55,517 bases of DNA from Peptococcaceae bacterium (GCA_009778595.1 WRJI01000006.1:1-55517), one strand, 5' to 3'; positions 6,442 to 47,260 are shown, counted from the stretch's first letter. A program made the numbers and translations. The notes: generated from the letters alone by a model not told the origin.

Positions 6442-6728
6442 TGAGAGATCCTCGCGATGTTCTGATCAAGCCGGTCATCTCGGAAAAATCCGTTGGTTTG
6501 ATGGAAGAAAACAAATACTCATTTTGGGTGGCACCTGTGGCCAACAAAATTGAAATCAGACACGCTGTGGAGAAGATGTTCAAAGTCAGTGTCATTGAGG
6601 TTCGCACAATGAATGTCAAGGGCAAAAAGAAACGTGTCGGTCGCTCCGTTGGGATGACATCGGATCGTAAAAAAGCCATTGTCTCCCTCAAAGAGGGAGA
6701 CCGCATAGAAAACTTTGCGGGCCTGTAA
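6441..6728 (+). CDS. rplW: 50S ribosomal protein L23
   Basis: L23 sits at the tunnel exit and docks the signal recognition particle and trigger factor. The product is 95 residues. It contains the family's PVISEKS motif near the N-terminus and KVMNVKGK-like residues ([14 protein letters not shown]). The GAGGAGGTG ribosome binding site lies inside the end of rplD. A 109-nt spacer with no clear feature precedes rplB. Confidence 0.96.
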
Positions 6729-6837
6729 GACAGTTTATAGAATCAGCGCTACGAATACGTATCATCATTTCAATTGAAGGCGTCATCACTGACAGCCCGG
6801 AACAATTGTCAATGGATATTAAAAGGGAGGGAAAGAC

Positions 6838-7668: not shown

Positions 7669-7685
7669 CCTGAAAGGAGACCAAT

Positions 7686-7967
7686 ATGGGCAGATCCCTG
7701 AAAAAAGGACCATATGCCGAACCGAAATTGTTGAAACGTGTCGAAGATATGAACAAGTCCGGCGAGAAACGTGTGTTGAAAACCTGGTCTCGCAGATCCA
7801 CCATCTTTCCGCAAATGATAGGCCATACCATCGCCGTGCACGACGGCCGCAAACATGTGCCCGTCTTTGTCACCGAAGACATGGTTGGACATAAACTCGG
7901 TGAATTTTCACCGACCAGGACCTTCAAAGGTCATGCCGGCAGCGAAAAATCCAGCGGATTGCGCTAA
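7686..7967 (+). CDS. rpsS: 30S ribosomal protein S19
   Basis: S19 forms a complex with S13 in the 30S head. The product is 93 residues, starting [11 protein letters not shown], with the conserved [23 protein letters not shown] and HKLGEF(S)PTR blocks. The ATG follows GAAAGGAG. Normal for the family; 14 nt before rplV. Confidence 0.97.
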
Positions 7968-7981
7968 GGGGGAGAAAACAG

Positions 7982-8323
7982 ATGGAAACAAGAGCTGTTA
8001 CCAAATACGTGCGGGTCTCCCCGCGCAAAGCGCGGCGAGTCGCCGACCTCATCCGTGGTAAACGCGTCAACGAGGCGTTGGCCATCCTGAGGGCGGTGCC
8101 CCAAATGAGCAAAGAGCCTGTCGTCAAAACCCTGAAATCAGCTATAGCCAACGCTGAAAACAACAACGATGCCGTGGCGGAAGACCTCTTTGTCACCAAC
8201 ATTTTTATCGATCAAGGTCCGACACTCAAGCGGATCAAACCGCGAGCCCAAGGTCGGGCAGACCGCATCAACAAACGCACCAGTCACATAACGGTTCTGG
8301 TAGGCGACAAGGAGGAGGATTAA
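7982..8323 (+). CDS. rplV: 50S ribosomal protein L22
   Basis: L22 lines the peptide exit tunnel opposite L4. The product is 113 residues, typical, with the [16 protein letters not shown] block and the [20 protein letters not shown] tunnel hairpin (here KPRAQGR). The ATG follows GGGGGAG. It ends 3 nt before rpsC, so the two are probably translated in a coupled way. Confidence 0.97.
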
Positions 8324-8326
8324 AGC

Positions 8327-9034
8327 GTGGGCCAAAAAGTTAACCCCAACGGCCTCCGGGTCGGAATCATCCGGTCATGGGACGGCCAATGGTATGCAGA
8401 TAAAAACTACGGAGAATTGCTTCACGAAGACATCAAGATCCGTAACTATATCAAAAACAAACTGACGACAGCGGGCGTACCGTTAGGATCTGCTGCAGGG
8501 ATCCCTCGCGTGGTCATTGAACGAACAGGCGACAACAAAGTCCGTGTAACCATCAGTGCGGCTCGACCGGGAATGATTATCGGACGCCAAGGCGCCGAAG
8601 CGGAGGTGCTCCGCAAAGAGCTGGAAAAAATGACCGGCAAACAAGTCTCTGTCAATATTGCCGAAATCAAGAAAATGGAACTCGACGCGTTTCTGGTCGC
8701 CACCGGCGTCGCTCAGCAGCTGGAAAAGAGAGTTTCCTTTCGCCGGGCCATGAAACAGACCGTCGGTCGCACCATGCGGCAAGGGGCCCAAGGTATTAAG
8801 ATTCAATGCAGCGGCCGTTTGGGCGGTGCTGAGATCGCTCGCACAGAGTGGTATAACGAAGGGAAGGTACCCTTGCATACCCTTCGAGCAGACATCGACT
8901 ACGGTTTTGCCGAAGCCAACACGACTTACGGTAAAATCGGAATCAAAGTCTGGATCTACAAAGGAGAGATACTTCCAGCCGCCAAAGTAGCCCAGGAAGG
9001 AGGCGCAGCTCATGCTCGTGCCAACCAGAGTTAG
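8327..9034 (+). CDS. rpsC: 30S ribosomal protein S3
   Basis: S3 forms part of the mRNA entry helicase. The product is 235 residues, starting [18 protein letters not shown]. The KH type-2 domain carries the GxxG loop IIGRQG, and the C-terminal domain carries [20 protein letters not shown]. The start is GTG behind AAGGAGGAT in the end of rplV. The last 23 nt overlap the start of rplP. Confidence 0.97.
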
Positions 9035-9524
9035 ACATCGTAAACAGCACCGGCCCAGTCTCAAAGGCCGTGCCCACCGCGGCAATACCATCAGCTACGG
9101 GGAATATGGCCTCCAAGCTGTAGAAGCCGCCTGGATCACTAACAGACAGATCGAAGCTGCGCGTATCGCCATGACCCGTTACATCAAACGTGGCGGCAAA
9201 GTCTGGATCAAGATATTTCCGGATCGCCCGATAACGGCCAAACCGGCCGAAACACGTATGGGTAGCGGCAAAGGAACCCCGGAATATTGGGTAGCCGTCG
9301 TCAAACCGGGTCGCGTCATGTTTGAATTGGCCGGCGTTCCCGAAGATATCGCAAGAGAAGCCCTCAGACTGGCAATGCATAAACTACCTATCAAATGCAA
9401 AATCATTGCCAACGAAAACTACGACGAGTCTCAGGCCGGCCTACCCAAAGATGAGCCTATGGACAAGGCCCTTGAGGCAACAGAACTCAATGAATCCGGA
9501 GGTGACGTTGATGGCGAAGACTAG
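9012..9524 (+). CDS. rplP: 50S ribosomal protein L16 with acidic C-terminal extension
   Basis: L16 contacts A- and P-site tRNA. The core ([14 protein letters not shown]... to LPIKCKII) is conserved, with [22 protein letters not shown] and MGSGKG. The product is 170 residues, while the usual length is about 137-146. The extra 25 or so C-terminal residues are rich in Glu and Asp (for example [10 protein letters not shown]). The start overlaps the rpsC end by 23 nt. The extension overlaps the rpmC start by 14 nt and contains its ribosome binding site. Confidence 0.95.
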
Positions 9525-9711
9525 AAACCTACGCGACATGACTGACGAAGAAGTCACCAAACAAATCGATCAACTCAAAACCGAACTCTTCAACCTGCGT
9601 TTTCAATTGGCAACCAACCAATTGGATAACCCGATGCGGATCCGCGAGGTTCGCAAAGATATCGCCAGAGGCAAAACCATCCTTCGGGAACGCGAGTTAA
9701 AGAGAGCCTAA
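9511..9711 (+). CDS. rpmC: 50S ribosomal protein L29
   Basis: A small tunnel-exit protein that binds beside L23. The product is 66 residues, [15 protein letters not shown]..., with the family's [17 protein letters not shown] motif and RVRKDIAR-like tail. The ATG follows GGAGGTGACG. The gene starts inside the 3' end of rplP in another frame, which probably couples their translation. Confidence 0.95.
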
Positions 9712-9761
9712 TTGGGACTTCACAGATCAGAACCCCTTGGAAAGGAGGATTGAGAATTCAT

Positions 9762-10043
9762 ATGGAAGCTGGAAACGAAGAGCGAAATCAACGCAAAACC
9801 CGGATGGGACGTGTTGTCAGCGATAAAATGAATAAGACTATCGTCGTTGCCGTTGAAAGTTCCGTCAGGCATCCCCTCTACAAGAAGACGGTTAACGTTA
9901 CCAAGAAGTTTAAAGCACATGATGAAGAGAACACCGCAAAAACCGGCGACATCGTCGAAATCATGGAAACAAGACCACTCAGCAAAGAGAAAAGCTGGCG
10001 GCTCGTCCGCGTGGTCGAACAGGTTGTAGCCTTAAATAATTGA
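9762..10043 (+). CDS. rpsQ: 30S ribosomal protein S17
   Basis: S17 binds 16S rRNA early in assembly. The product is 93 residues from this ATG ([22 protein letters not shown]...), with the conserved KTIVVAV, HPLYKK and [21 protein letters not shown] segments. A TTG lies in frame at 9750, but it is only two bases after the AAAGGAGG ribosome binding site, so the ATG is preferred. Confidence 0.94.
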
Positions 10044-10098
10044 TCAGATTCCTGCAACGACAAGATTCAAGCGAAAAAGCGAGAAAGGGGTATCCCCA

Positions 10099-10467
10099 AT
10101 GATCCAGGTAGAGACAGCCCTGCGAGTGGGCGACAACACCGGCGCCAAAAAACTCAAATGTATTCGTGTCCTGGGTGGCTCGGTACGACGGTACGCTTCA
10201 ATCGGAGATGTCATTGTCGCTTCTGTCAAAGAAGCAGCCCCGGGCGGCATGGTTAAAAAAGGTGAAGTCGTCAAAGCCGTTATCGTCCGAACGACAAAGG
10301 AAATCCGCCGCAGCGACGGTTCCTATATTCGTTTCAGCGAAAACGCCGCCGTAATTATCAAAGACGACAAAAGCCCGCGCGGAACTCGCATCTTTGGTCC
10401 GGTGGCTCGGGAACTCCGGGAAAAAGACTACATGCGCATCGTCTCATTAGCTCCGGAAGTGTTGTAA
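10099..10467 (+). CDS. rplN: 50S ribosomal protein L14
   Basis: L14 forms an intersubunit bridge and is the docking site for silencing factor RsfS. The product is 122 residues, exactly the usual length, starting [18 protein letters not shown]. It has the signature [20 protein letters not shown] and ends [16 protein letters not shown]. The ATG follows AAAGGGG. Nothing unusual. Confidence 0.97.
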
Positions 10468-25492: not shown

Positions 25493-26572
25493 ATGAATAA
25501 AAATACTGACATTCAAGTGGGAATTCTCGGGGCAACCGGGTATACGGGTCGGGAACTGGTTCGGGTTCTCAGCAATCACCCGAAGGCAGAAATCGTTTAT
25601 CTGGGAACCTCAAGTGCTCAGGGGAAGCCATATGGTTTTGTCTATCCGGAATTGTTGGGATCTCCTTTAGGAGATTTGATTATGGAGGATGAGAGCAGCG
25701 TTCCTGAAGTTGATGTTTTGTTCTGCGCTGTACCCCATGGGATTATGGCGTCCCGGGTTGCGGAGCTGTTAGCACGTGGCATAAGGATAATTGATTTGGG
25801 AGCGGATTTTCGACTGAAAGATCCCGCGAAGTATCGTCAATGGTATGGCGAAGGGTTGGATCTTTCGGATCCGGATCATCCCGATCCGGATAATCTATCT
25901 CAGGCCGTTTATGGGTTGACGGAAATCTATCGTGAGGATATCGCCGCCGGAAGTCTTATCGCGAATCCCGGTTGCTATCCGACATCGGCTCTATTACCTT
26001 TGATACCTTTATTGGCAAATGGTCTCATTGAGCACGACCCTATTGTTATCGACGCCAAGTCAGGGGTCTCGGGAGCTGGGCGCACTCCCTCAGCGCGGAC
26101 ACATTATTGTCAGGTGGAAGATAATTTCCAGGTTTACGGTATTGATGGCCACCGCCATATGCCGGAAATTGAACAGGAATTGTCATTTGCGGCGGGGGCA
26201 TCAATTTGTGTGTCATTTACGCCCCATCTTGTGCCTATGGTTCGTGGAATGATGGCAACAATTTATACTCGAATTCGAAAAGATTCAAAAGTTGGAGAAA
26301 CGGATCTGCGTCATTGTTGGCAGAACGCTTACCAAGATGTTGCTTTTGTCCGGGTTATGTCACCGGGGGTGTGGCCTATGAGTAAGCACGCTTTCGGCAG
26401 CAATAACCTATATATGCAGGTTCGGGTAGATGAGCGGACAGGTCTTGTTGTTATCGTATCTGTTCTCGATAATTTGGTCAAAGGTGCCTCGGGTCAGGCC
26501 GTTCAAAATATGAATGTTATGTTTGGCTTACCGGAAAAAACAGGCCTGGAAATGCTAAGTCTTTGGCCTTGA
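25493..26572 (+). CDS. argC: N-acetyl-gamma-glutamyl-phosphate reductase
   Basis: Third step of arginine synthesis: reduces N-acetylglutamyl phosphate to the semialdehyde with NADPH. The product is 359 residues. The nucleotide-binding loop GATGYTG is at residues 13-19 and the catalytic cysteine is C161 in NPGCYPTS. The ATG follows GAGGAGGAAGG. First gene of argCJBD, with its own strong promoter. Confidence 0.97.
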   Translation: MNKNTDIQVGILGATGYTGRELVRVLSNHPKAEIVYLGTSSAQGKPYGFVYPELLGSPLGDLIMEDESSVPEVDVLFCAVPHGIMASRVAELLARGIRIIDLGADFRLKDPAKYRQWYGEGLDLSDPDHPDPDNLSQAVYGLTEIYREDIAAGSLIANPGCYPTSALLPLIPLLANGLIEHDPIVIDAKSGVSGAGRTPSARTHYCQVEDNFQVYGIDGHRHMPEIEQELSFAAGASICVSFTPHLVPMVRGMMATIYTRIRKDSKVGETDLRHCWQNAYQDVAFVRVMSPGVWPMSKHAFGSNNLYMQVRVDERTGLVVIVSVLDNLVKGASGQAVQNMNVMFGLPEKTGLEMLSLWP

Positions 26573-26602
26573 GACAAAGAAATCGGAGAATGGGGGATCG
26601 TA

Positions 26603-27865
26603 ATGGTCTGGGATGTTTTGTGTCATGGAAAAGGGGTTGCGGAACCTTTGGGTTTTTTCGCGGCCGGGGTTCAGGCTCAGGTGAAGTATCCTGGGAAGTA
26701 TGATGTGGCTTTAGTCTATTCCCGTTGTCCCGCGGCAGCAGCAGCTGTTTATACGAGTAATTTGGTGAAAGCGCATCCTTTGATGTTGAACCAACGTCAT
26801 CTGGCCAATGGGCAGGCTCAAGCAGTGGTCATTAACAGCGGTAATGCCAATGCCTGTTTGGGTGGGGAAGGGGATGATGCCGCTTGGGCGATGGCTGAGG
26901 AGACGGCTCGGGTTCTTGGGTTGAAACCTGAGGATGTTGTCGTTGCGTCCACCGGTGTTATCGGGCAACCTTTTCCTACGGAGAGAGTACGGGAGGGGAT
27001 ACAGAAGGCAGCTATGGAGATAAAGGCTTGTCAGGAATCTTTTTTAGATTTTTCAGAGAGGGCGTTGCAGGGAGCTCATTTTGCCTCTTTGGCTATTATG
27101 ACGACGGATCTGGTCCCGAAGCAGGCGGCTTATGAAGTCAAGGTAAGCGGCGGAATTGTTCGTTTGGGGATTATGGCGAAGGGTTCCGGGATGATTCATC
27201 CGCAGATGGGAACTATGTTGGCATTTATCACGACGGATGCTCGTGTTGAGGTTGGACCTTTGCAGTCGCTTCTGCGTGATGCTGTTGACGAAAGTTTCAA
27301 TATGATCACTGTTGACGGGGATATGAGTACCAATGACATGGTGGTGGCACTCGCCAACGGTTGTTCGGGTATCGAGCTTGTGGATGAGGATTGGGAAACC
27401 TTTCGCGGTGTTTTTCGGGCAGCTTGCCGCCATATGGCTCAAGCTATCGCGGGAGACGGAGAAGGCGCTTCCAAATTGTTGACGGTGCAGGTGTCAGGGG
27501 CTTCCTCCAAGGAGCAAGCCCGTCAAGTGGCCCGTGCGGTTTGTGGATCCAATCTGGTAAAGTGTGCGATGTATGGCCGCGACGCGAACTGGGGTCGTAT
27601 TATCTGTGCTGTAGGGTATGCGGGTGTCGAAGTCGATCCGGGGAAAATCTCGATTTCTTTGAATGGATTGCAGGTTGCCGAGAAGGGCAAGGAGGTTGTT
27701 TTTGACGAGAAGGAAGCATCGAAGCGGCTTAGTGATGATACAGTTACGATTCATGTCGATTTGGGGAGCAAGGGGTCTGAAATCGAGAAGGGGTTCTCGG
27801 CGACCGCCTGGGGGTGTGATTTGACGCATAAGTATATCGATATTAATTCGGATTATCGAAGCTAA
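26603..27865 (+). CDS. argJ: Bifunctional ornithine acetyltransferase / N-acetylglutamate synthase
   Basis: Recycles the acetyl group from N-acetylornithine to glutamate. The product is 420 residues. It is made as a precursor that cuts itself before a threonine: here KGSGMIHPQMGTMLAFITTDA, so T204 would be the nucleophile. The residue before it is Gly203, where many homologues have Ala. The presence of argJ means a cyclic acetyl pathway. The ATG follows CGGAGAATGGGGG. The stop TAA is the left edge of repeat copy 3. Confidence 0.96.
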   Translation: MVWDVLCHGKGVAEPLGFFAAGVQAQVKYPGKYDVALVYSRCPAAAAAVYTSNLVKAHPLMLNQRHLANGQAQAVVINSGNANACLGGEGDDAAWAMAEETARVLGLKPEDVVVASTGVIGQPFPTERVREGIQKAAMEIKACQESFLDFSERALQGAHFASLAIMTTDLVPKQAAYEVKVSGGIVRLGIMAKGSGMIHPQMGTMLAFITTDARVEVGPLQSLLRDAVDESFNMITVDGDMSTNDMVVALANGCSGIELVDEDWETFRGVFRAACRHMAQAIAGDGEGASKLLTVQVSGASSKEQARQVARAVCGSNLVKCAMYGRDANWGRIICAVGYAGVEVDPGKISISLNGLQVAEKGKEVVFDEKEASKRLSDDTVTIHVDLGSKGSEIEKGFSATAWGCDLTHKYIDINSDYRS

Positions 27866-27979
27866 CGCGGTCTTCGACCGCAAGTATCCAGTATTCAGGA
27901 TTCAGGATTCAGAATGTGGATTTTCTTGTTTTTTATTGATGTTGTTGCAACCTAAGCGACTAACGCGGGCTTTGCCCGC
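27863..27979 (+). repeat. Dispersed hairpin/heptamer element, copy 3, with second head
   Basis: The head GCGGTC-TTC-GACCGC is at 27867-27881. It is followed by four heptamers (TATCCAG, TATTCAG, GATTCAG, GATTCAG), AATGTGG, the AT core, GTTG-TTG-CAAC and CTAAGCGACTAACG. A second head with a different stem and loop, GCGGGC-TTT-GCCCGC, is at 27965-27979. Both edges read CTAACG. It lies inside the arg operon between argJ and argB. Confidence 0.9.
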
Positions 27980-28056
27980 AAGAGCCATTGTTGGTGAGGA
28001 CTCCGAATTTTTCAGGTTGGTGACATCAGATTATCTTGAGGGGGTTGGCGGGATTA

Positions 28057-28944
28057 ATGAAAGTCGGTTATTTGGAGAGGGCTCAGATATTGGTTGAAGC
28101 GCTACCTTATATTCAGCGGTTTGCCGGACAAACCGTTGTGATAAAGTATGGCGGCCACGCTATGGTTGATGATATCTTGAAAGAGTCTGTGCTTTTGGAT
28201 ATTCTGTTGTTGCATTCTGTGGGTCTGCGTCCTGTTGTTGTTCATGGGGGCGGTCCGGAGATTAATCGTATGCTCGGGCGGATCGGGAAGAAAAGTACCT
28301 TTGTGCAGGGGCTACGGGTGACAGATGAGGAGACGATGGAGATCGCGGCTATGGTGTTGGTGGGCAAGCTGAACACCCAAATTGTGGGTCATTTAAATCG
28401 ATTGGGCGGTCGAGCCGTAGGGTTGAATGGGCAGGACGCCAGACTTTTTTTGGCTGAGAAAAAACCTATGAGGCTGATTAATGGCGAAGGTTTTGCGGAG
28501 GATGTGGATTTGGGATATGTAGGTCAGATTACGAAGATGTCACCGGAGATCGTGGTGTCTTTGCTTGATCAGGGGTTTATTCCGGTTATTTCGCCCTTGG
28601 CGGGAGGCGAGGATGGGCTTCCGTACAATGTTAACGCTGATATGGCGGCGGGAATGTTGGCCGGGGCTCTGAAGGCGGAAAAACTGTTTCTGCTGACGGA
28701 TGTGCCGGGAATTATGCGGGATATTCATGATCCCGGATCAGTGATTTCTGAGCTGAGCGGTCAGGATGTTGAGAAGCTTATTGTTGAGGGCGTGATTCAG
28801 GGCGGCATGATTCCGAAGGCGGAATGCGCGTTGTTGGCCCTGGAACAAGGTGTCCCGAGAGTTCATATTGTTGACGGACGTCAACCGCATACATTGTTGC
28901 TGGAGCTTTTCAGTGATGTGGGTGTCGGGACGATGCTATGTTAA
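28057..28944 (+). CDS. argB: Acetylglutamate kinase
   Basis: Second step of arginine synthesis: phosphorylates N-acetylglutamate, often feedback-inhibited by arginine. The product is 295 residues. Landmarks are [10 protein letters not shown] (K30), VHGGGPEI and GLNGQDARL. The N-terminal helix ([21 protein letters not shown]) is the type found in arginine-sensitive hexameric enzymes. The ATG at 28057 follows GAGGGGGT; an in-frame TTG at 28036 lies before that site. Confidence 0.96.
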
Positions 28945-28956
28945 GGGAGAGGATTT

Positions 28957-29000
28957 GTGCGTCGGTCGGCGCGTTGGTCGGTGCGCCGGTTGGTGCGTGG
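28957..29000 (+). repeat. G/T-rich low-complexity spacer, argB-argD
   Basis: Repeated variants of GTGCGTCGGTCGG / GCGTTGGTCGGTGCG / GGTTGGTGCGTGG fill the argB-argD spacer. It looks like degenerate tandem slippage of a GGTYGGTGCG unit. No promoter is visible. Confidence 0.55.
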
Positions 29001-29027
29001 GCAGTAAGAGAGTAAGGAGTGGTTAAG

Positions 29028-30212
29028 ATGCAAACGGAGAAGCTTATTGAGTCAGGCCGGAAGGTTCTCATGAACACTTATAACCGGTATCCTCTGGTTC
29101 TGGCCAAGGGGAAGGGAACCCGGGTCTGGGATGTGGATGGGCGTGAATATCTTGATTTCGTTACAGGGTTCGCAGTGACGTCTTTGGGTCATGGTCATCC
29201 CCAAGTGATCAAGGCTATGGAGGAGCAGCTGGGGTGTTTTGTGCATACTTCGAACGCGTTTTGGCTGGAAAAACAAATTGAGTTGGCCCGGAAACTGACG
29301 GAGATTTCTTTTGCTGATAAGGTGTTCTTTTGCAACAGCGGTGCTGAGGCCAATGAGGCGGCTTTAAAACTGGGACGAAAATTTGCCAGGCTCCATGGCG
29401 GGGAATCAAAAACCCGGATTGTCTCGTTAAATAATTCATTTCATGGGCGGACATTTGGAGCGTTAACGGCGACGGGGCAGAGGAAGTATCAGAAGGACTT
29501 TGAGCCGTTGGTGCCCGGGTTCGATTATGTTGACAATAACGATGGCGAGGCTCTGCGGTCGGTTATTAATGAGAATACGGCTGCGGTTATCCTGGAACCT
29601 ATTCAAGGTGAAGGGGGTGTCTATCCGGTGAGTTCCGCGTTCATGAAGCTAACCCGGGAGTTGTGCGACGCGTTTGGAGCTTTATTAATCTTTGACGAGA
29701 TCCAATGCGGATTGGGGCGGACAGGGCATCTTTTCGCATATGAGATGGGAGATGTAGTTCCGGATATTATGACCTTGGCAAAGGCTTTGGGCAATGGTAT
29801 TCCTATTGGAGCGATGCTGGCAACGGATCAGGTAGCTGACGCGTTTCAGCCGGGGGATCACGCTTCGACTTTTGGCGGCAATCCTTTGGTTACAGCTGCC
29901 GGGTGCGCTGTCCTTGATGTAATGACCGCACCGGGGTTTTTGGAAGAGGTGCGGGTGAAGGGGGCTTATTTGAAATCGGCACTGCAAAAACTGGCTGATG
30001 AACGGTGGGATAACGCTCCGGTGCGAGGTGAGGGTTTGATGTTAGGGGTGACTGTAGGGGATACAGCTCCGGGAATCGTGGAGGCGTGCCGGAAACGGGG
30101 GTTGTTGATTAATTGCGTCGGGGGAACGGTTTTGCGTTTTTTGCCACCTCTAACGGTGAGTTGGGAAGAGCTTGATGAGGCGATTGAGGTCATTCACAAT
30201 CATGGTCTATAG
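29028..30212 (+). CDS. argD: Acetylornithine aminotransferase
   Basis: A PLP enzyme that makes N-acetylornithine from the semialdehyde and glutamate. The product is 394 residues, class III aminotransferase. Landmarks are FCNSGAEANEAALKLGRKF, the FDEIQCGLGRTG aspartate that holds the pyridine nitrogen, and the Schiff-base lysine in TLAKALGNGIP. The ATG follows TAAGGAG; an in-frame GTG at 29019 overlaps that site. The 3' end overlaps the convergent gene by 23 bp. Confidence 0.96.
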   Translation: MQTEKLIESGRKVLMNTYNRYPLVLAKGKGTRVWDVDGREYLDFVTGFAVTSLGHGHPQVIKAMEEQLGCFVHTSNAFWLEKQIELARKLTEISFADKVFFCNSGAEANEAALKLGRKFARLHGGESKTRIVSLNNSFHGRTFGALTATGQRKYQKDFEPLVPGFDYVDNNDGEALRSVINENTAAVILEPIQGEGGVYPVSSAFMKLTRELCDAFGALLIFDEIQCGLGRTGHLFAYEMGDVVPDIMTLAKALGNGIPIGAMLATDQVADAFQPGDHASTFGGNPLVTAAGCAVLDVMTAPGFLEEVRVKGAYLKSALQKLADERWDNAPVRGEGLMLGVTVGDTAPGIVEACRKRGLLINCVGGTVLRFLPPLTVSWEELDEAIEVIHNHGL

Positions 30213-31929
30213 CGACCAATTGGCCGGTGACCCCACAGCTCTTTTTCCAAAAAGCGATGCCAAATAATCTGGCCTGCTTGATTTCACTTGCCAGGAAAGC
30301 ATCCTGATAGCTGTGGTTTTTGATTTGAGCTAGGGCAGACTCGCACATTCTTGGGATCATGGTTAAGTCTTTGGCAGGCTTGATTTCAATGACGACACCT
30401 ATGGAATCGTCGACAGGATAGAGGATAATATCACTTCTCCCGGTTCCTGATTCTCTGTTGGATTCGACTGCCCAAGGGCCTCCTGTCAGGAGACCGGCCA
30501 GGAAACCGTGATAATAGTTCTCTTGACCATCATAATAGCTAATGCTGGTACGAAGATACAACCGCAGAATCTCCTGGATGGTATCACAATCACCCTCTAA
30601 AAAAGCCTGATACAGCTTAGCTTGGTCTTCTTTGGCTTTATCTGTTCTGAGAGTTGTCGCAAACCATTTCTGGATTTTTTCAATGAAGATCTCTTTGATC
30701 TCCTCATTAGGGATACACAATCGCAGTGTGTTACGGGGAAGCTTTTCAAGGGCTGGCTTCTGAGTTAAATAGCCTGTAAGGAGAAGCACACTCCAAAGAT
30801 TATCAATACTCTCATCAATTTCAGCATAGGTCAGGTTGGATAATACGGTTTTATCAATGGTGTTTCCGGCTATGAGTTGCTCAATTTCTTTTCGTGTTGT
30901 CGCATCAGCCTTGTCAATAAAGCGTTTGACCAAAGCATTGGAACTGGTATTATTCCAATAGGCCTCCGGCTTGGTTTGGGTGTCATTATGAAGTTTTTTA
31001 ACATGATTAACAATATCCCAAGGGCAATACACATTCGCTTGGCCAAAATGGTAGCCATTATACCACAAACGCAGTTGGTCATGGGAACTACAAAGGCAAT
31101 AATCTGCCAGCATCTTTTTGACTTCTTCATCAGTAAACCCAAAATACTCATCATAATGATTATCTAATATTGTGTCGACCTCAAGGTTGTTAATACCGGT
31201 AAATATACTTTCTTTCGATATACGTAGGCATCCTGTTACAACAGCGAATTCCAACGCAGGGTTCGTTTTAAAGGCTTCTCCCAAAAAAATGCGCATAAAG
31301 CCGATCATATCATCATAGTAACCGTGGTCAAAGGCTTTATCTAGAGGGACATCATATTCGTCAAGGAGGAGGATAACCTTTTGTCCGTAGTGGGCATGCA
31401 ACATGCGGGTGAGGATTCTCAAACATCCTGCCAGTTGTTGCGTGGTTGCCTTGCCTGCCTTAAGCGACTTGAAAATGGAGATATAATCCTTATCAACCCT
31501 TGCGCTATGAGCCAAAAACGCCAAGCGAATACATTCGTTAGCAATTTGAAAGGCAAGCCTTCCCAGGGCATCTTCAAAAGTTTTCCCCTCGACAGTTTTC
31601 AGTGTTAAAAAGATAACAGGATGTTGGTTCATATATTTTTCACAAATAAGATGCTCTTTCGTAATAGCCAAATCCTTAAAGAATCCTTCATTGATCTCAA
31701 GAAAGTCAGGCTTTTGTTGGGGTAGGGGTTGATCCGTCTTGATCTCGAAAAAAGCCTGAAGCATGCTCATCATCAGAGTCTTGCCAAAACGACGTGGTCG
31801 GGTAAACAAATTCACAGCGCCCCGGTTTTGCAACAAATCACGGATAAAGTTGGTTTTATCAACATAATAGTAATCTTGCTTGCGAAGATCTTCAAATAAA
31901 TCTATACCTACCGGCAATTTTTGATGCAT
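30190..31929 (-). CDS. AAA-ATPase-like protein with PD-(D/E)XK nuclease domain
   Basis: 579 residues. The N-terminal half is an AAA-ATPase-like domain with P-loop RPRRFGKT at residues 44-51 and Walker B VILLLDEYDVPL near 190. The C-terminus has a PD-(D/E)XK-type core, GTGRSDIILYP...GVVIEIKPAK, near 510-535. This pairing (AAA-ATPase_like plus PDDEXK_9) occurs in many copies in Clostridia and Bacteroides and has no established role; a mobile or defence function has been proposed. It is convergent with argD and interrupts the arg genes. The start follows AAAGGAGGG on the minus strand. Confidence 0.9.
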   Translation of the reverse strand: MHQKLPVGIDLFEDLRKQDYYYVDKTNFIRDLLQNRGAVNLFTRPRRFGKTLMMSMLQAFFEIKTDQPLPQQKPDFLEINEGFFKDLAITKEHLICEKYMNQHPVIFLTLKTVEGKTFEDALGRLAFQIANECIRLAFLAHSARVDKDYISIFKSLKAGKATTQQLAGCLRILTRMLHAHYGQKVILLLDEYDVPLDKAFDHGYYDDMIGFMRIFLGEAFKTNPALEFAVVTGCLRISKESIFTGINNLEVDTILDNHYDEYFGFTDEEVKKMLADYCLCSSHDQLRLWYNGYHFGQANVYCPWDIVNHVKKLHNDTQTKPEAYWNNTSSNALVKRFIDKADATTRKEIEQLIAGNTIDKTVLSNLTYAEIDESIDNLWSVLLLTGYLTQKPALEKLPRNTLRLCIPNEEIKEIFIEKIQKWFATTLRTDKAKEDQAKLYQAFLEGDCDTIQEILRLYLRTSISYYDGQENYYHGFLAGLLTGGPWAVESNRESGTGRSDIILYPVDDSIGVVIEIKPAKDLTMIPRMCESALAQIKNHSYQDAFLASEIKQARLFGIAFWKKSCGVTGQLVAIDHDCE

Positions 31930-35966: not shown

Positions 35967-36893
35967 ATGAGAAGAATCATCCTCATTTTGCTGTCAAGTC
36001 TGCTCCTGTTCCTTGGGGGTTGCCTGATTAACGTCGGTTCGGCGGCGCCCACGGTGCTAAGGGATTTCCCTCCCGACACCCTATTATTGCCGACAGAAAG
36101 TGCTGTTGTCGAGGAAGTCCCGGAAGCCGGCATCGACTACGGCAATGCGGACAGAGGTTACATCCTGGCTTGGTATTCCGGATCAAAAGCCGCTAAGATT
36201 CAGGTTGTCAAGGCGGATGACAGCGGGGCTCAGCTCAATCAATGGAATTATGACGTGGATCGGGTTGATGTCAAAGAGGTTTTGCCGCTGCAGGCGGGAT
36301 CGGGTCATTATAAGGTGCTTGTGGCGGAACAAATAGAAGGAACCCGGTACAGCCCGCTGACGACCGTTGAGTTTGATGTCAATATCACTGATGAGCGGCT
36401 ACCTTTCTTGTATCCCAACAAATTTGTCATGTACTCAGAAGACTCCGTTTCAACACAAAAAGCAAGAGAATTGACCCAAGGCTGCAGCAGTGATATCGAA
36501 GCCGTTAACAAAATCTACAAGTTCGTCAAAGGATTCATTAAATATGATACCACAAAAGCAGAAACGATAGAGGCTTTCTATACCCCTGACCCGGATACTG
36601 TTCTGGCCAACGGCAAAGGGATCTGCATGGATTATGCTTCCCTGGTCTGTGCGCTCTTGCGTGCCAATCATATTCCCGCAAAAATGGTTACCGGGAAGGT
36701 AGAAAACGACCTCAATCACGCTTGGAATTCAATCTATTTAGAGAACGAAGGCTGGATCGATGTCAAGATCTATATTGAAAGCAATACTTGGGGGATCATT
36801 GATCTGACCTTTGCTTCAGGGGACATCAGCAGCGACCAACTGGCAAAATACATTGGCAATGGCGAGAAGTACACAGAGTTAAAGGTTTATTGA
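35967..36893 (+). CDS. Lipoprotein with transglutaminase-like domain
   Basis: 308 residues. The signal peptide ends in the lipobox LGGC (lipidated C19). The C-terminal part has the transglutaminase-like triad: C220 in GKGICMDYASL, H251 in LNHAWN and D265 in GWIDVK. Such proteins may be peptidases or crosslinkers acting outside the membrane. It overlaps the ribosome binding region of the next gene (GspF) and is on the same strand, so it probably belongs to the pilus-like operon. ATG after AAAGGGAGA. Confidence 0.88.
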   Translation: MRRIILILLSSLLLFLGGCLINVGSAAPTVLRDFPPDTLLLPTESAVVEEVPEAGIDYGNADRGYILAWYSGSKAAKIQVVKADDSGAQLNQWNYDVDRVDVKEVLPLQAGSGHYKVLVAEQIEGTRYSPLTTVEFDVNITDERLPFLYPNKFVMYSEDSVSTQKARELTQGCSSDIEAVNKIYKFVKGFIKYDTTKAETIEAFYTPDPDTVLANGKGICMDYASLVCALLRANHIPAKMVTGKVENDLNHAWNSIYLENEGWIDVKIYIESNTWGIIDLTFASGDISSDQLAKYIGNGEKYTELKVY

Positions 36894-36907
36894 CAAGGGA
36901 GGATGCC

Positions 36908-37951
36908 ATGAAAGCAAACCGGCGTGTTTTGTCTCACCTTGAACTCATGATCTTCTTTGAGAATCTTGGCTTGCTGCTCTCTTCGGGGCTGACAGTAGAA
37001 GACAGCCTGAAACTCATGATTAATGAATCTGTTACCCAGAAGGAGAGCGCCTTTCTGACGGAATTGCACAATGAGCTGTCGTCGGCCTATGTATTGAGTA
37101 CAGCAATGGATGGGTTGGGGATTTTTCCGCCTTATACCGTCAATATGATCCGGTTGGCGGAACGATCCGGAAACCTGGACACGGTGTGTACGACCTTAGT
37201 CGACTACTATGAACAGGAGAACCGTCGGGTTGCTCAGATTAAAAGCGCTGTCACCAATCCCTTTATTTTGGTTTGTATTATCACGATTGTGGTGGCTTTT
37301 CTGGTCAATGCTGTTTTGCCGATTTTCTCCGGCATCTATGCACAAATGGGTGTGGATATCACCGCCAATACGCTGGTTCAGGTTGCGTTGACCATCGGTT
37401 CGGTTGCTATGTGGACCGTATTAACCTTGTTAGTGCTGGTAATTCTGGGATTCATGTTCAATATGACAAAAGCCGGCAAACGGTTTTTCGCCTCTGTAGC
37501 CGAATGGGCTCCGGTGACGCGAACCATCAATAAAACCATGTCAATGGCCCGGTTTACTTCAACGTTCTCGTTATTGTTGACCAGCGGTGATGATCTGCCC
37601 ATGGCGCTGTCCATGGCGAGCACAGTTTGCCCAAGCCGTGGTGTCAGATCCAGGTTGGAACAGTGCCATATCGAGGTTCTGGCCGGAGGAGCTTTGGCGG
37701 ATGTCCTCATTGGCAGCGGTCTTTTTAGCCCCACTCATGTGGGGATGATCAAAAGCGGCGTTCGCTCAGGGTCAACACCAAGGGTGATGGGACGTCTGTC
37801 CGCGATCTACGAACAGGAATCTACTCAAGTGCTGGCAGGGTTTCTGTCTCTTATAGAACCTCTGCTCATCAGTCTTTTATCTATCATTATTGGTGTTATT
37901 CTGCTGTGCATTATGTTACCTTTGATTGGGATTCTATCCTCTTTCGGCTGA
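36908..37951 (+). CDS. GspF/PilC-type inner-membrane platform protein
   Basis: 347 residues with two T2SSF domains (about 10-130 and 205-330) and three membrane helices (about 120-150, 170-195, 310-340). This family forms the inner-membrane platform that a secretion or pilus ATPase drives. The ATG at 36908 is used because AAGGGAGG lies just upstream. It starts 14 nt after the lipoprotein stop. Together with the genes up to 41277 it makes a compact operon. Confidence 0.9.
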   Translation: MKANRRVLSHLELMIFFENLGLLLSSGLTVEDSLKLMINESVTQKESAFLTELHNELSSAYVLSTAMDGLGIFPPYTVNMIRLAERSGNLDTVCTTLVDYYEQENRRVAQIKSAVTNPFILVCIITIVVAFLVNAVLPIFSGIYAQMGVDITANTLVQVALTIGSVAMWTVLTLLVLVILGFMFNMTKAGKRFFASVAEWAPVTRTINKTMSMARFTSTFSLLLTSGDDLPMALSMASTVCPSRGVRSRLEQCHIEVLAGGALADVLIGSGLFSPTHVGMIKSGVRSGSTPRVMGRLSAIYEQESTQVLAGFLSLIEPLLISLLSIIIGVILLCIMLPLIGILSSFG

Positions 37952-37963
37952 AAGGTGCGACAC

Positions 37964-38413
37964 ATGAGCGTAAAAAACATTCAAGAGAAAAACACCCCTT
38001 GGCGTGTAGGCCGTTTTGGTCATAGATTCGGCGGTATGAGCGTCCCAAGGCTCAACCAGGCCAAGAAGGCAAAGTTCAGCTTACGAAGGGTCGTGTTCTC
38101 CCTGGGAGCTTTGATCGTGTTAGCGCTGGTATTAATCCTGTTTACCCGGCATGTGTCGGATTCGGTTCAGCGCGAAGGGGAACGGGTCGCCAGGGAGGCC
38201 ATCGTCCGCGCTCTCATTTCTTGTTACGCCGCAGAAGGAAGCTATCCGACGTCTCTTGATTATCTGGAAAAGAGTTATGGAGTCATTATTGACCATAATA
38301 AATATGTCGTTCATTATGGGGTCTTTGCTTCGAATGTTATGCCTGAGGTGACTTTGGTTAGAAGAAATCAGGGGACAGGACCCGGAAAAAATCCCCCCCG
38401 GACAAAACAGTAG
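37964..38413 (+). CDS. Pseudopilin-like membrane protein
   Basis: 149 residues. A basic cytosolic stretch (about 1-42), one membrane helix (about 44-63), then a short exposed region with CYAAEGSYPTSLDYLEKSYG, which resembles the segment after the helix in minor pseudopilins. No clear prepilin-peptidase site (G-x4-E) is visible. An in-frame GTG lies at 37955. Repeat copy 4 follows 11 nt after the stop. Confidence 0.65.
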   Translation: MSVKNIQEKNTPWRVGRFGHRFGGMSVPRLNQAKKAKFSLRRVVFSLGALIVLALVLILFTRHVSDSVQREGERVAREAIVRALISCYAAEGSYPTSLDYLEKSYGVIIDHNKYVVHYGVFASNVMPEVTLVRRNQGTGPGKNPPRTKQ

Positions 38414-38424
38414 AACTCTCTCAT

Positions 38425-38487
38425 GCGGTCTCCGACCGCAAGTATCCAGTATTCAGTATTCAGGATTCAGAATGTGGATTTTCTTGT
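38425..38487 (+). repeat. Dispersed hairpin/heptamer element, copy 4 (truncated)
   Basis: The head GCGGTC-TCC-GACCGC is at 38425-38439, followed by TATCCAG, TATTCAG, TATTCAG, GATTCAG, AATGTGGATTTTCTTG. The core stops there. It is followed by degenerate AGCCAG-GAGTCAG units (38508-38520), like those of the divergent element at 31993. The AGGAG in that tail appears to serve as the ribosome binding site of the next gene. Confidence 0.85.
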
Positions 38488-38521
38488 ACAATCCAGTAAT
38501 CAAAAAGCCAGGAGTCAGATT

Positions 38522-39163
38522 ATGGGTCAGGGATTAAAACAAAGGTATGGTCCCCCAAAAAATCAAAGATCAAAGATGCGTCACAGTTCGAGAATCCTGC
38601 GCGGTTCAGGTTCCAATCACACCGCCCTTTATCGCATACCCACAGTATTGTTGGTCAGCTTGTTTGCCCTAAGCACCTTGGTCGCCGCTTCCTATGGGAT
38701 GAAGAACTATCAGGTGATTGTCAAGGCCTCGGATAAAAATTTCGTGGGCCGGACAGGGCTGTCTTATATCGCCACCAAAATGCGTCAAACCAAAGCGGCC
38801 GTCATTGAACTTCCTGATCCCCATACCCTTGTGCTGATTGAGGAGATCGAAGAGCAATACTACGCCACACATATTTCTTTGCGTGACGGTATGTTGCGGG
38901 AGTCTTTTGGCCTTTATGAAAGCCAGAGCCTTAGTCAAGAGAGGAATACCTCGGGTCAGGACTGGGACAACACAGATCAGAACGAGGTTGATTTCGGTGA
39001 GAGTCCAAGCACAACAGCGACTTTTGATACAGCTATCACAAAAGCCAAAGGATTTTCGGTCGCTTTCATCACCGATGATTTGATCGAGATTTCTCTTGAA
39101 GACGACTATGGGGATGTGTATAAAATGTTGGTCTATATGCCGATAAAGGAGGTTCGAAGATGA
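38522..39163 (+). CDS. DUF4860 domain protein, pilin-like
   Basis: 213 residues from the ATG at 38522, which lies 7 nt after AGGAG. One membrane helix (about 41-60) is followed by FVGRTGLSYIATKMRQ...YYATHISLRDGMLRESFG, which matches the DUF4860 family found in clostridial pilus-like clusters. The open frame extends back to 38423, through repeat copy 4. That longer start would translate the repeat and is unlikely. The gene overlaps the next start by 4 bp. Confidence 0.8.
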   Translation: MGQGLKQRYGPPKNQRSKMRHSSRILRGSGSNHTALYRIPTVLLVSLFALSTLVAASYGMKNYQVIVKASDKNFVGRTGLSYIATKMRQTKAAVIELPDPHTLVLIEEIEEQYYATHISLRDGMLRESFGLYESQSLSQERNTSGQDWDNTDQNEVDFGESPSTTATFDTAITKAKGFSVAFITDDLIEISLEDDYGDVYKMLVYMPIKEVRR

Positions 39164-39654
39164 GATCGTCCTCCAAAATAATTGGTCTTTTATTGGAAAT
39201 CATACTCTCAACAGTTTTTTTCGCCATTATCTGTGTGGTTGTGCTGCAGATCTTTATGCAGACACAAAAGATAGAACAACTCAGCCGTGATAAGTCCGGC
39301 GCGATTGTTCTGGCTCAAACTGTTGGGGATATGTTTCGCAGCCAAATGCCAAAGGGGTTGGATGATTATGCTTTCACATTGAGGAGCCGATATTTACAGG
39401 CATATTCCCAGGTTGATGAGAGGCATTTCGTTATTTCCCTGGATGAAGAGAAAGGTGCCAATGGACGCGGTTGGTTTGCTTCAATTGAAGTTGATGAGAT
39501 CACAAGTTCGCCTGTTGGAAAGCTGAGCCGTGCCGTTATAAGAGTTCAGAAATCGGGTAACGTTCTTTTCGAATTAAATGTTGATTCGTATTCACCTGAC
39601 AGAGGGATGATAAGAGTTGAGAATCAAGGATCTTTGACTATCGATGACGAATAA
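39160..39654 (+). CDS. Prepilin-like membrane protein
   Basis: 164 residues. The N-terminus, MRSSSKIIGLLLEIILSTVFFAII, looks like a prepilin leader with a glycine followed by hydrophobic residues and a glutamate, though the glutamate is at +4 and not the usual +5. One membrane helix (about 8-31) precedes a beta-rich exposed domain. It overlaps the DUF4860 gene by 4 bp and so is translated together with it. Confidence 0.7.
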   Translation: MRSSSKIIGLLLEIILSTVFFAIICVVVLQIFMQTQKIEQLSRDKSGAIVLAQTVGDMFRSQMPKGLDDYAFTLRSRYLQAYSQVDERHFVISLDEEKGANGRGWFASIEVDEITSSPVGKLSRAVIRVQKSGNVLFELNVDSYSPDRGMIRVENQGSLTIDDE

Positions 39655-39685
39655 CATTCCAAGAGTCGGGAGAAGGGGGGTTTAG

Positions 39686-40222
39686 GTGAACATGAACAAA
39701 GGAGAAAAAGATTCGTCGAATATTGTCCATGGAACACTCGAACACGCGAGCCGGCCTGGGGTTAATGTTGGGTTTATCTCACTGCTGATGATTTTTATGG
39801 TTCTATGCTTAACTGTGTTTATCGCCTTGGCATTGCTGAACGCCGGTGTTGATAAGCGTTTGACCGATAGAACGGGGGAGACTGCCTTGGCTTATTACGA
39901 GGCGCAAAACCGCTTTCAGATGTTTCTGAGTGAGCTTGACTCTTTTTTGCCGGAGGCGGTTCAGGATGGGGGAAGAATCGAGGAATTCCTTCTCCGCCGT
40001 GAAGGGTTGTCGGAAGAGTCGGTTTATGATGAGGCCCGGGGTCTCATCAGCGCCCGGTGGCCCGCCGGTGAGCGATTGGTGCTCCTGGCAGAAATCCTGA
40101 TTCATGTTCCGGTGGTTGACGGGGCACGGTATCATATCCAATCGGTCTATGTGGCACCTAGGCAGGAGTCGATGAAGGAGCCTTTGAATAACTTGTGGAG
40201 CGGGGAGGATTTTTTTCAATGA
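39686..40222 (+). CDS. Single-pass membrane protein of the pilus-like operon
   Basis: 178 residues. A membrane helix lies at about 28-51 (GFISLLMIFMVLCLTVFIALAL), then an exposed domain. The stretch ETALAYYEAQNRFQMFLSEL is like the helix after the membrane segment of PilX-type minor pilins. No named family is recognised. GTG start after AAGGGGGG; an ATG at 39692 is possible. It overlaps the ATPase start by 4 bp. Confidence 0.65.
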   Translation: MNMNKGEKDSSNIVHGTLEHASRPGVNVGFISLLMIFMVLCLTVFIALALLNAGVDKRLTDRTGETALAYYEAQNRFQMFLSELDSFLPEAVQDGGRIEEFLLRREGLSEESVYDEARGLISARWPAGERLVLLAEILIHVPVVDGARYHIQSVYVAPRQESMKEPLNNLWSGEDFFQ

Positions 40223-41277
40223 CAATCAGGGAATTATTGGGTATGGCTGTGGAACAGGGGGCTTCCGATATTTTCATTGTTTCTCAGCGGGCATTAACTT
40301 TTAAGATTGAGGGCAGGTTCATTCCTGTGAGCGAAGTTCCTGTCAAACCTGAGGATGTGGAGAATATCATCAGGGAGATTTACCGGGCCAAAGAAAGGGA
40401 TATGTCAACGTTGATCAATACCGGTGATGACGATTTCTCATTCTCTGTGAGCGGTATGGGACGGTTTCGGGTCAACACGTTTCGCCAGCGGGGATCTCTC
40501 GCGGCGGTCATTCGTGTAATCAGTTTCGTTATGCCTGATCCGGCCGCGCTGCGGATTCCGGACGCGGTGATGAATGTCTCGAATTTCTCCAACGGGCTCG
40601 TGTTGGTCACCGGACCGGCTGGAAGTGGGAAGTCAACGACTTTGGCTTGTATCATTGACCGGATTAACCAGGAAAAGAACGGTCACATTATTACCATGGA
40701 AGATCCTATCGAATACATTCACCGGCACAAGCAGTGTATTGTGACCCAGAGGGAGGTGCCCAGCGATACCCGGAGTTATGTAACGGCGTTGCGGGCCGCG
40801 TTGAGGCAGTCACCCAACGTGCTGCTCCTTGGGGAGATGCGGGATCTGGACACGATTGAGATCGCAATGACGGCGGCTGAGACCGGGCAGTTGGTGCTGT
40901 CGACGCTGCATACCATGGGAGCCGCCAATACCATTGACCGGATTATTGATGTGTTTTCCCATAATCAGCAGCAACAGATTCGGATCCAGTTATCGATGGT
41001 ACTGAAAGCGGTGGTTTCCCAGCAGCTGTTGGAGGGGAAGGACGGGAGATTGATTCCGGCTTTCGAAATTATGATATCGAATCTGGCCATTCAGAATATG
41101 ATTCGAGAGGGCAAGATCCATCAGATCGAGTCGGCAATCTACGCGGGAACGAATGTGGGAATGACGACGATGGATAACAGTTTGTTCAGGTTGTACGAAG
41201 ATGAGTTGATTGATAAGGAGGAAGCGATTCTCTTTGCGAATAATTATGAATCCATGCGGCAGAGAATTGAGGGGTGA
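40219..41277 (+). CDS. PilT-type pilus/secretion ATPase
   Basis: 352 residues. An N-terminal PAS-like domain (LLGMAVEQGASDIFI) precedes the RecA-like ATPase: Walker A GPAGSGKST at 132-140, the Asp box in ITMEDPIEY, Walker B LLLGEMRD and the His box STLHTMGA. The retraction motif AIRNLIRE appears as AIQNMIREGK. By sequence it is a PilT (retraction) type. No PilB assembly ATPase is near. ATG after GGGGAGGA, overlapping the previous gene by 4 bp. Last gene of the operon, convergent with the LTA-synthase-like gene 26 bp on. Confidence 0.92.
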   Translation: MTIRELLGMAVEQGASDIFIVSQRALTFKIEGRFIPVSEVPVKPEDVENIIREIYRAKERDMSTLINTGDDDFSFSVSGMGRFRVNTFRQRGSLAAVIRVISFVMPDPAALRIPDAVMNVSNFSNGLVLVTGPAGSGKSTTLACIIDRINQEKNGHIITMEDPIEYIHRHKQCIVTQREVPSDTRSYVTALRAALRQSPNVLLLGEMRDLDTIEIAMTAAETGQLVLSTLHTMGAANTIDRIIDVFSHNQQQQIRIQLSMVLKAVVSQQLLEGKDGRLIPAFEIMISNLAIQNMIREGKIHQIESAIYAGTNVGMTTMDNSLFRLYEDELIDKEEAILFANNYESMRQRIEG

Positions 41278-44658: not shown

Positions 44659-45675
44659 ATGAAAATCATAGACTTGCTCAAAAAATACAAGTGGATGTTG
44701 ATCATTAACCTCTGTATCGTGGGGATGCTCGTTTTAGCCGTTTGTATTGTAAACTCATTTCATGGAAATCCTCCTTTGGAATATAATTATAAGTACAGCA
44801 GCGAGTTGGGCGGCGTGATCTTAACGAAATACACAGGGCAAGACCTTGATGTTATGATCCCCTCTAAATTAGGGAAACACCCTGTTGTAAGCATTGAGGG
44901 ACAGAATGGGCGCGGATTGGTTAGTGACCAAGTTAGAACAGTCATCATACCTGACAGCGTGACAACTATCGGCGATTATGCGTTTGCCGGCTGTGAGTCG
45001 CTGGTATCGATCTCAATACCTACAAGTGTCGATACTATCGGTATCTGTGCGTTTTGCAATTGCACGTCTCTTTCATCAATCGCTCTCCCTGAGAAGGTAA
45101 CCAGGATTGGTTCCGCCGCGTTCAATACTTGCAAATCCCTTATATCAATCACAATTCCTAATAGTGTGCCAAGTATTGGTGACAGAACATTCGCCGTTTG
45201 CAGTTCTCTTATTTCAGTTACCATTCCTGAAAGTGTTATCAGTATTGGTGATAGTGCGTTTGCAGGGTGCGACTCCCTTGAGTCGGTCATAATACCTGAC
45301 AGTGTAACAAGTCTCGGCAGCAGCGCATTTAGCCGTTGTAGTTCGCTTAAGTCAGTTACTCTCTCCATTCGTTTAACATATATTGAGGATTACGCGTTTT
45401 ACTATTGTGGTTCACTTGAGTCAGTTACTATTCCCAACAGCGTCTCAAGAATTGGTTATGAATCGTTTTACTATTGCAGTTCCCTCACGTCAGTCACGAT
45501 ACCCGAAAGTGTTACAAATATCGGTTATGGCGCGTTTCTTGATTGCGGATCCCTTGAGGAAGTACTCATTCCCAATAGCGTGACCGGTATAGGGAATATA
45601 GCTTTTTTGAGATGTCCTTTACGTTCCGATCAAACCAAAGAAAGAATATTCCAAATCAATCCTAAGGCGCTTTGA
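44659..45675 (+). CDS. BspA-type leucine-rich repeat surface protein, copy A
   Basis: 338 residues. One N-terminal membrane helix (about 12-33) is followed by about nine 23-residue LRR_5 repeats of the form SVTIPDSVTSIGDSAFAGCDSLE. The family is found on the surface of host-associated and anaerobic bacteria, where some members bind proteins, but the ligand here is unknown. The second copy lies 137 bp downstream with nearly the same N-terminus and ribosome binding region (GGGGGTTAACT). Confidence 0.88.
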   Translation: MKIIDLLKKYKWMLIINLCIVGMLVLAVCIVNSFHGNPPLEYNYKYSSELGGVILTKYTGQDLDVMIPSKLGKHPVVSIEGQNGRGLVSDQVRTVIIPDSVTTIGDYAFAGCESLVSISIPTSVDTIGICAFCNCTSLSSIALPEKVTRIGSAAFNTCKSLISITIPNSVPSIGDRTFAVCSSLISVTIPESVISIGDSAFAGCDSLESVIIPDSVTSLGSSAFSRCSSLKSVTLSIRLTYIEDYAFYYCGSLESVTIPNSVSRIGYESFYYCSSLTSVTIPESVTNIGYGAFLDCGSLEEVLIPNSVTGIGNIAFLRCPLRSDQTKERIFQINPKAL

Positions 45676-45812: not shown

Positions 45813-46829
45813 ATGAAAATCATAGGCTTGCTTACAAAATACAAGTGGCTTCTGATCATTAACCTCTGTATCGTGGCGATGCTCGTTTTAGCCATTTGTA
45901 TTGTAAACTCATTTCATGGAAATCCTCCTTTGGAATATGATTATAAATATAGCAGCGAGTTGGGCGGCGTTAGCTTAACGAAATACACAGGGCAAGACCT
46001 TGATATTATGATCCCCTCTAAATTAGGGAAACACCCTGTTGTAGGAATTGAGGGGAAGTATGGACGTGGATTGGTTAGTGACCAAGTCAGAACGGTCATA
46101 ATACCTGACAGTGTAGCAACTATCGGCGACTACGTATTTTTTGGCTGCAAATCGCTTGTCTCAATCACAATCCCCAATAGTGTTGATACTATAGGGAGTA
46201 ACGCTTTTTGCAGCTGCCTTTCACTTACATCAATCGCAATCCCTAAAAACGTAACAGATATTGGTGTCGCAGCGTTTAATGGTTGTCGCTCCCTTACAAC
46301 AATCACAATTCCCCAAAATGTCGTGAGCATAGGTTCCGGAACGTTTGGTGGTTGCATTTCCCTTACCTCCGTTGTAATTCCTGAAAATGTCATAAGTATT
46401 GGTGATAGTGCGTTTGCGGGGTGCGACTCCCTTGAATCGGTCACAATACCTGACAGTGTAACAAGTCTCGGCAGAAGTGCTTTTAGCCGTTGCAGTACAC
46501 TTAAGTCCATTACACTCTCAAATAATTTAATGAATATTGAGGATTATGCCTTCAGCAATTGCATCTCTCTGGAGTCAGTTACAATTCCAAATGGTATGAC
46601 AAGTATAAATTATCAAACATTTAGTTATTGCAGCTCTCTTACGTCAGCCACAATACCTGACAACGTCACGATAATTAGTCATGGCGCGTTTTTTGATTGT
46701 AGTTCCCTTGAGGAAGTCACAATCCCTGGCAGTGTCACAAGTATTGGCAACGGGGCTTTTACAAGATGCCCATTACGGTCAGAACAAACAAGACTAAGAA
46801 TATTCCAAATCAATCCTGAGGCGCTTTGA
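45813..46829 (+). CDS. BspA-type leucine-rich repeat surface protein, copy B
   Basis: 338 residues, the same length and plan as copy A. The first 115 residues are almost identical (differences such as LLKKYKWM/LLTKYKWL), while the middle repeats differ more (for example KNVTDIGVAAFNGC against EKVTRIGSAAFNTC). This fits a recent tandem duplication with faster change in the exposed repeats. The ribosome binding site is TGGAGGTTAACT. Confidence 0.88.
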   Translation: MKIIGLLTKYKWLLIINLCIVAMLVLAICIVNSFHGNPPLEYDYKYSSELGGVSLTKYTGQDLDIMIPSKLGKHPVVGIEGKYGRGLVSDQVRTVIIPDSVATIGDYVFFGCKSLVSITIPNSVDTIGSNAFCSCLSLTSIAIPKNVTDIGVAAFNGCRSLTTITIPQNVVSIGSGTFGGCISLTSVVIPENVISIGDSAFAGCDSLESVTIPDSVTSLGRSAFSRCSTLKSITLSNNLMNIEDYAFSNCISLESVTIPNGMTSINYQTFSYCSSLTSATIPDNVTIISHGAFFDCSSLEEVTIPGSVTSIGNGAFTRCPLRSEQTRLRIFQINPEAL

Positions 46830-47240: not shown

Positions 47241-47260
47241 GAATGAGGAGGGCACACACC

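Follow-up and report, generated by a model that had tools for sequence, protein, structure and literature searches.

How could a filament-like machine be built and moved when its operon offers a PilT-family ATPase as the only motor? This question is raised by a locus within a 55,517-nucleotide stretch of DNA from a Peptococcaceae bacterium (GCA_009778595.1 WRJI01000006.1:1-55517), hereafter called the window. Every type 4 filament is described as having pilins, a prepilin peptidase, an extension ATPase and a platform (PMC10191384). The assembly function of PilB is essential in all families (PMC6668835), and PilT is dispensable for piliation (PMC6916266). The preliminary description of the locus had proposed a compact pilus- or secretion-like operon of seven same-strand genes, and seven open reading frames were indeed found on the plus strand of positions 35967-41277:

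35967..36893, plus strand: TGL, a transglutaminase-like lipoprotein of 308 aa, predicted to be secreted (PF01841, 80 bits)
36908..37951, plus strand: GspF/PilC-type membrane platform (Pfam T2SSF, 129 bits, in two stretches; GspF/ComGB models)
37964..38413, plus strand: p3, a short single-pass pilin-like protein (alignments, AlphaFold and PDB fold matches)
38522..39163, plus strand: DUF4860 protein, a GspJ/GspI-like putative minor pseudopilin (PF16152, 34.7 bits; fold match)
39160..39654, plus strand: p5, a ComGE/GspI-like putative pilin (weak ComGE/XpsI/GspH matches)
39692..40222, plus strand: p6, a PilX/GspK-like single-pass protein (weak PilX_N match; GTG at 39686 as an alternative start)
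40219..41277, plus strand: PilT-family ATPase (TIGR01420, 407 bits)

The gene starts were re-assigned by reading Shine-Dalgarno sequences. The start of GspF moved from the mechanical ORF start at 36890 to the ATG at 36908, which lies behind the ribosome site AAGGGAGG. The start of p3 moved from 37955 to the ATG at 37964, that of DUF4860 from 38423 to the ATG at 38522, and that of PilT to the ATG at 40219, downstream of its mechanical ORF start. Several 4-bp overlaps had been reported for the operon; after correction, ATGA overlaps remain at the DUF4860/p5 and p6/PilT junctions only, and the presumed overlap of TGL with GspF is gone. Scans for promoters and terminators returned sites no more numerous than in shuffled sequence. 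The family labels transglutaminase-like, GspF, DUF4860 and PilT-type are borne out by the Pfam and TIGR scores (the cut-off is 25 for DUF4860 in Pfam and 319 for TIGR01420, pilT_fam).

Arginine-type genes bracket a 17-kb stretch of the window that contains the operon, with argC, argJ, argB and argD at 25493-30212 and argF, argG and argH, assigned by inspection, at 47243-51055. An ArgD-like gene also lies upstream of the operon in the related locus L019. Elsewhere in the window, the minus strand encodes a 579-aa AAA-ATPase_like/PDDEXK_9 protein (30190-31929), and two BspA-type leucine-rich-repeat proteins stand in tandem at 44659-45675 and 45813-46829, the first 300 bases of their genes being 92% identical.

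Whether this set of genes belongs together was addressed by looking for the same order in other genomes. Loci were gathered by a DUF4860 search through the class and then through 398 genomes of the phylum, as well as by a PilT search in named genomes, and genes at the loci were called by iterated profiles. DUF4860 matches in genus g15 (L026-L029) were set aside as ordinary type IV pilus prepilins beside PilB. The order TGL-GspF-p3-DUF4860-p5-p6-PilT is complete in 30 loci across Bacillota, the window included (12 in genomes with a G handle and 18 in named records), and the remaining loci are broken by contig ends or miss one part. This recurrence is far beyond chance. The carriers include many gut and soil Clostridia-type bacteria, with loci in Lachnospiraceae, Oscillospiraceae, Erysipelotrichaceae, Anaerovoracaceae and others, and the operon is common in gut Lachnospiraceae and their relatives. 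Since the flanking genes vary even within the window's genus, the seven genes make up a unit of their own. The conserved order indicates that one PilT-family ATPase, a GspF-like platform, four small putative pilins and the TGL are inherited together.

Departures from the order were also seen. In genus g9 (L090, L091, L092), the operon-type PilT gene is detached from the operon, with miaB- and ylbF-like genes as its neighbours. Locus L121 (G387:C2:64000-80000) has GspF, p3, DUF4860, p5 and p6 at 6504-9266 and no PilT, and the whole of genome G387, listed as 100% complete, contains neither a T2SSE ATPase nor an A24 peptidase.

The retention of GspF and pilin-like genes in G387 without an ATPase, together with the partly degenerate motifs of p5, could be read as signs of decay, the operon being a remnant of a type IV pilus that has been lost. 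This reading, disfavoured already, is barely credible against intact frames, a conserved order and invariant catalytic residues. The operon genes are, moreover, under purifying selection, even in genomes without a peptidase: between G406 and G295, which both lack one, dN/dS is 0.025-0.18 across all seven genes. For the DUF4860 genes of the window and L019, dN is 0.21 and dS is 1.50.

The ATPase is a PilT by several measures. It scores 407 bits against TIGR01420, well within the PilT/PilU subfamily, and 134 bits against the ComGA model, far below the cut-off of 300, and it matches solved PilTs with E values down to 4e-94. Its Walker A motif (GPAGSGKST) is intact and is accompanied by a GEMRD Walker B region. 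An AIRNMIRE-like motif at the C-terminus is a mark of PilT retraction motors, and this motif is kept among the operon PilTs along with the Walker motifs. In a quick maximum-likelihood tree of 91 sequences, 40 of the 41 operon PilTs and the three detached PilTs of g9 form one clade (43 rows; SH-aLRT 96), which branches within the ordinary PilTs, well away from PilB (PilB support 100). A lone PilT-family protein of genome G072 (L095, 6826-7995), 41% identical to the operon PilT and with no platform gene nearby, groups in this tree with the PilT of locus L120.

The small proteins of the operon are pilin-like, as had been suggested for p3, p5 and p6, though each in its own manner; the DUF4860 fold, a weak fold match of p3 and the sequence likeness of p5 and p6 agree on this point. 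Alignments of p3 reveal an invariant CYxxEGxYP...YG core, and its AlphaFold model (pLDDT 88) has a long N-terminal helix followed by a short helix and a beta hairpin, for which type IV pilins are the best, albeit weak, PDB folds (E 0.5). The DUF4860 protein has an N-terminal membrane helix, and its model (pLDDT 84.5) has XcpV and XcpW as top PDB folds (Foldseek probability 0.98 and 0.97); the predicted fold is thus like that of the minor pseudopilins GspI/GspJ of type II secretion. The weak matches of p5 are to ComGE, XpsI and GspH, ComGE being the most frequent, and p6 matches PilX_N weakly in two of 23 sequences. Profiles of p3, p5, p6 and DUF4860 searched against the PDB returned nothing significant, and in Pfam, members of p3, p5 and p6 had no more than scattered matches at chance level. 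From these likenesses, p5 and p6 resemble GspI and GspK, and the putative pilin set comprises p3 and a GspJ/GspI/GspK-like trio (DUF4860, p5 and p6).

As a set, these proteins do not carry the class III signal peptide (Gly or Ala at -1, Glu at +5). The prepilin cleavage motif occurs in none of the 47 p3 sequences and in one of 47 DUF4860 sequences, the exception being that of L120. Every one of the 46 p5 members has the Glu of pilin position 5, and the residue at -1 is G in seven and A in two, the others including I, P, R, N, T and F. All 46 p6 proteins have a Gly before the membrane helix, and their +5 residue is always L, V, I, M or F and never Glu. The link locus L120 (G282:C123, 5258-11236) is a related cluster with a different PilT. 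It has canonical motifs (GYTLVE in DUF4860, GFTLVE in p5) and a gene for a PilD-like A24 peptidase (9504-10310) between the p6 and TGL genes. L120 was considered as the ancestral operon and rejected, its PilT lying outside the operon clade; it is a related link only. The comparison fits a main clade that has lost cleavage and kept a role for the Glu.

The search for the missing parts in whole genomes covered T2SSE ATPases and A24 peptidases. Within the operon, as had been noted, there is no PilB-, peptidase- or PilM-Q-like gene. Two T2SSE-family ATPases are encoded in the window's genome (G000; 2.83 Mb, 91.6% complete), the operon PilT and a TadA-like protein on contig 1 (L031) beside TadB/TadC-like platforms, and neither a PilB nor a PilD-type A24_N domain was found in this genome. 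Its single A24 peptidase (241 aa) is encoded on contig 79 (L032), within a Tad-like cluster. This sole candidate belongs to a different, Tad-like system. The Tad-like system is split over contigs 1 and 79 and includes a DUF5702 protein of 1180 aa.

Several other carriers are poorer still. The drafts of G073 (93% complete), G406 (92%) and G295 (98%) have no T2SSE match above the cut-off besides the operon PilT and, at this completeness of 92-98%, no detectable A24 peptidase. G072 (94% complete) has one extra ATPase, the lone PilT-like protein mentioned above (389 aa), and no A24 peptidase was found in it. Among the named genomes, G487, G481 and G470 (completeness not given) contain the operon ATPase alone and no A24 peptidase. 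No PilB-type ATPase was found in G000, G072, G073, G295 or G406, and a full type IV pilus with PilB, which would have relegated the operon products to ordinary minor parts, is found neither in the window's genome nor in several other carriers. G072, G073, G295 and G406 represent two unrelated families, f1 and f99; draft gaps could account for one genome but hardly for two pairs of related genomes. The proposal that the missing parts lie elsewhere is disfavoured for G073, G295 and G406, whereas many other carriers do have PilB and/or an A24 peptidase elsewhere in the genome, so that the absence is not universal.

These other carriers lend some weight to the reading that the operon encodes a type 4 filament of the ordinary kind whose parts are unusual: a peptidase borrowed from a Tad system or type IV pilus would cleave the subunits at non-canonical sites, and the PilT-family ATPase would both extend and retract, as in the single-ATPase Com and Tad systems. 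Among 26 named carriers, 18 encode an A24 peptidase above the cut-off elsewhere, and one is encoded in the window's genome too; MSH loci are known that have no peptidase of their own and borrow one (PMC6668835); and the invariant Gly of p6 precedes its helix. This reading is nevertheless somewhat unlikely, given that no A24 peptidase was found in G072, G073, G295, G406, G487 and G481, that the -1 residues of p5 are so diverse, and that p3 is free of the motif. The operon could alternatively be an accessory retraction or regulatory module for a type IV pilus or Tad system encoded separately, PilT normally being a dispensable retraction motor (PMC6916266) and PilB-type ATPases occurring in many carriers too. 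It has its own platform and pilin-like set, however, and G073, G295 and G406 are without a further T2SSE ATPase that it might serve, which makes such a module very unlikely.

The TGL, product of the first gene of the operon, has an LGGC lipobox at its N-terminus and a Cys220-His251-Asp279 triad, whose three residues are identical in 39 of 39 relatives, and a lipobox-like Cys is present in most TGLs. In six loci (L110, L113, L116, L024, L124 and L133), a sortase gene adjoins the operon.

The preferred explanation, held at about even odds, is that the operon encodes a standalone minimal type 4 filament-like machine with a PilT-type motor and subunits that retain their leaders. In this machine, a PilT-type hexamer would drive the platform, which in turn would move a short p3 pseudopilus, capped by a complex of DUF4860, p5 and p6, on the outside of the single membrane. 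The subunits would keep their N-terminal leader uncleaved in most members, and the assembly would hence stay short and anchored in the membrane instead of growing into a long pilus that is shed. The invariant Glu of p5 may keep a role in assembly by docking to the platform or to a neighbouring subunit. More speculatively than any of these steps, the TGL, joined in some species by the neighbouring sortase, might covalently process or anchor either the assembly itself or a partner in the wall. The machine may serve adhesion, secretion or DNA uptake in the end. It is quite possible, if tentative, that the loci form a type 4 filament-derived family whose pilin-like subunits stay uncleaved and bear their leaders and whose only ATPase is of the PilT type. 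Such a machine would be a motor-driven surface device tethered to the membrane, not a pilus, with a transglutaminase-like enzyme coupled to it.

Some observations speak against the preferred explanation. The invariant Gly of p6 at the would-be -1 position could be cleaved, nine p5 proteins have G (seven) or A (two) at -1, the genomes without the missing parts are drafts, the fold match of p3 is weak, and G387, with platform and pilin-like genes and without any T2SSE ATPase, is a misfit for a motor-driven model. The core of the preliminary description, a compact pilus- or secretion-like operon relying on a PilT-type ATPase, is upheld by the conserved order and by the lack of PilB in several carriers, while the formation of a fibre is a prediction only.

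An uncleaved, PilT-only machine would contradict the established mechanism, because reviews place cleavage and a PilB-type ATPase in every filament (PMC10191384, PMC10790768). If the module does lack two of the four core parts in several genomes, it offers a test of which parts are truly needed and may show how such machines run without an assembly motor and a trimming enzyme. It raises the questions of whether assembly is possible with a PilT-type motor and whether the Glu at position 5 works without leader cleavage. These are testable, since named cultured strains such as [Clostridium] asparagiforme DSM 15981 and Pseudobutyrivibrio ruminis AD2017 carry the operon. DUF4860 also gains a likely role as a pilin-like part of the operon.

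How does the operon compare with known systems? The open-licence literature yielded no description of DUF4860 or of these gene combinations, in line with the earlier impression that no described system has this make-up; a description elsewhere is possible. From the four-part core of type 4 filaments, the operon has the platform (PF00482, 129 bits) and pilin-fold subunits. An ATPase of the PilB, GspE, ComGA or TadA type is not in the operon, and the A24 peptidase is absent from several carriers and present in many others.

The Com pilus (comGA-GG and comC), minimal with its eight components (PMC10790768), is similar in its monoderm host, its one ATPase, one platform and few pilins, and the lack of PilMNO and a secretin. 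The operon could accordingly be a Com equivalent that replaces comG where it is absent and passes DNA to ComEC, its pilin-like set corresponding to ComGC/E/F/G. Size class, the one-ATPase design and the weak match of p5 to ComGE agree with such a role. ComEC itself, present in 26 of 26 genomes tested, was dropped as a pointer to DNA uptake because it is equally present in the operon-free relatives G052 and G070. The operon differs, however, in its PilT-subfamily rather than ComGA-type ATPase, in having no canonical cleavage sites, in its conserved TGL and occasional sortase, which have no role in the Com pilus, and in the lack of a dedicated peptidase in several carriers. A Com equivalent is therefore improbable.

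The type II secretion pseudopilus (GspF, GspG/I/J/K) shares the GspF platform, the GspI/GspJ-like fold predicted for DUF4860, and the likeness of p5 and p6 to GspI and GspK; unlike it, the operon has no GspE, GspL/M/C, secretin or GspO, and its host is monoderm. With the type IVa pilus, it has the PilT and PilC/GspF families in common, but it lacks PilB, several of its genomes lack PilD, and in that pilus PilT is a dispensable retraction motor. A partial parallel is provided by the Gram-positive tad-like loci of Imam et al. (2011), which contain filament-type genes and no protein with an apparent prepilin signal (PMC3244431); those loci have TadA, TadC, TadV and TadZ, whereas the operon has GspF and PilT. 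The operon is a real, conserved and apparently undescribed variant of the type 4 filament kind.
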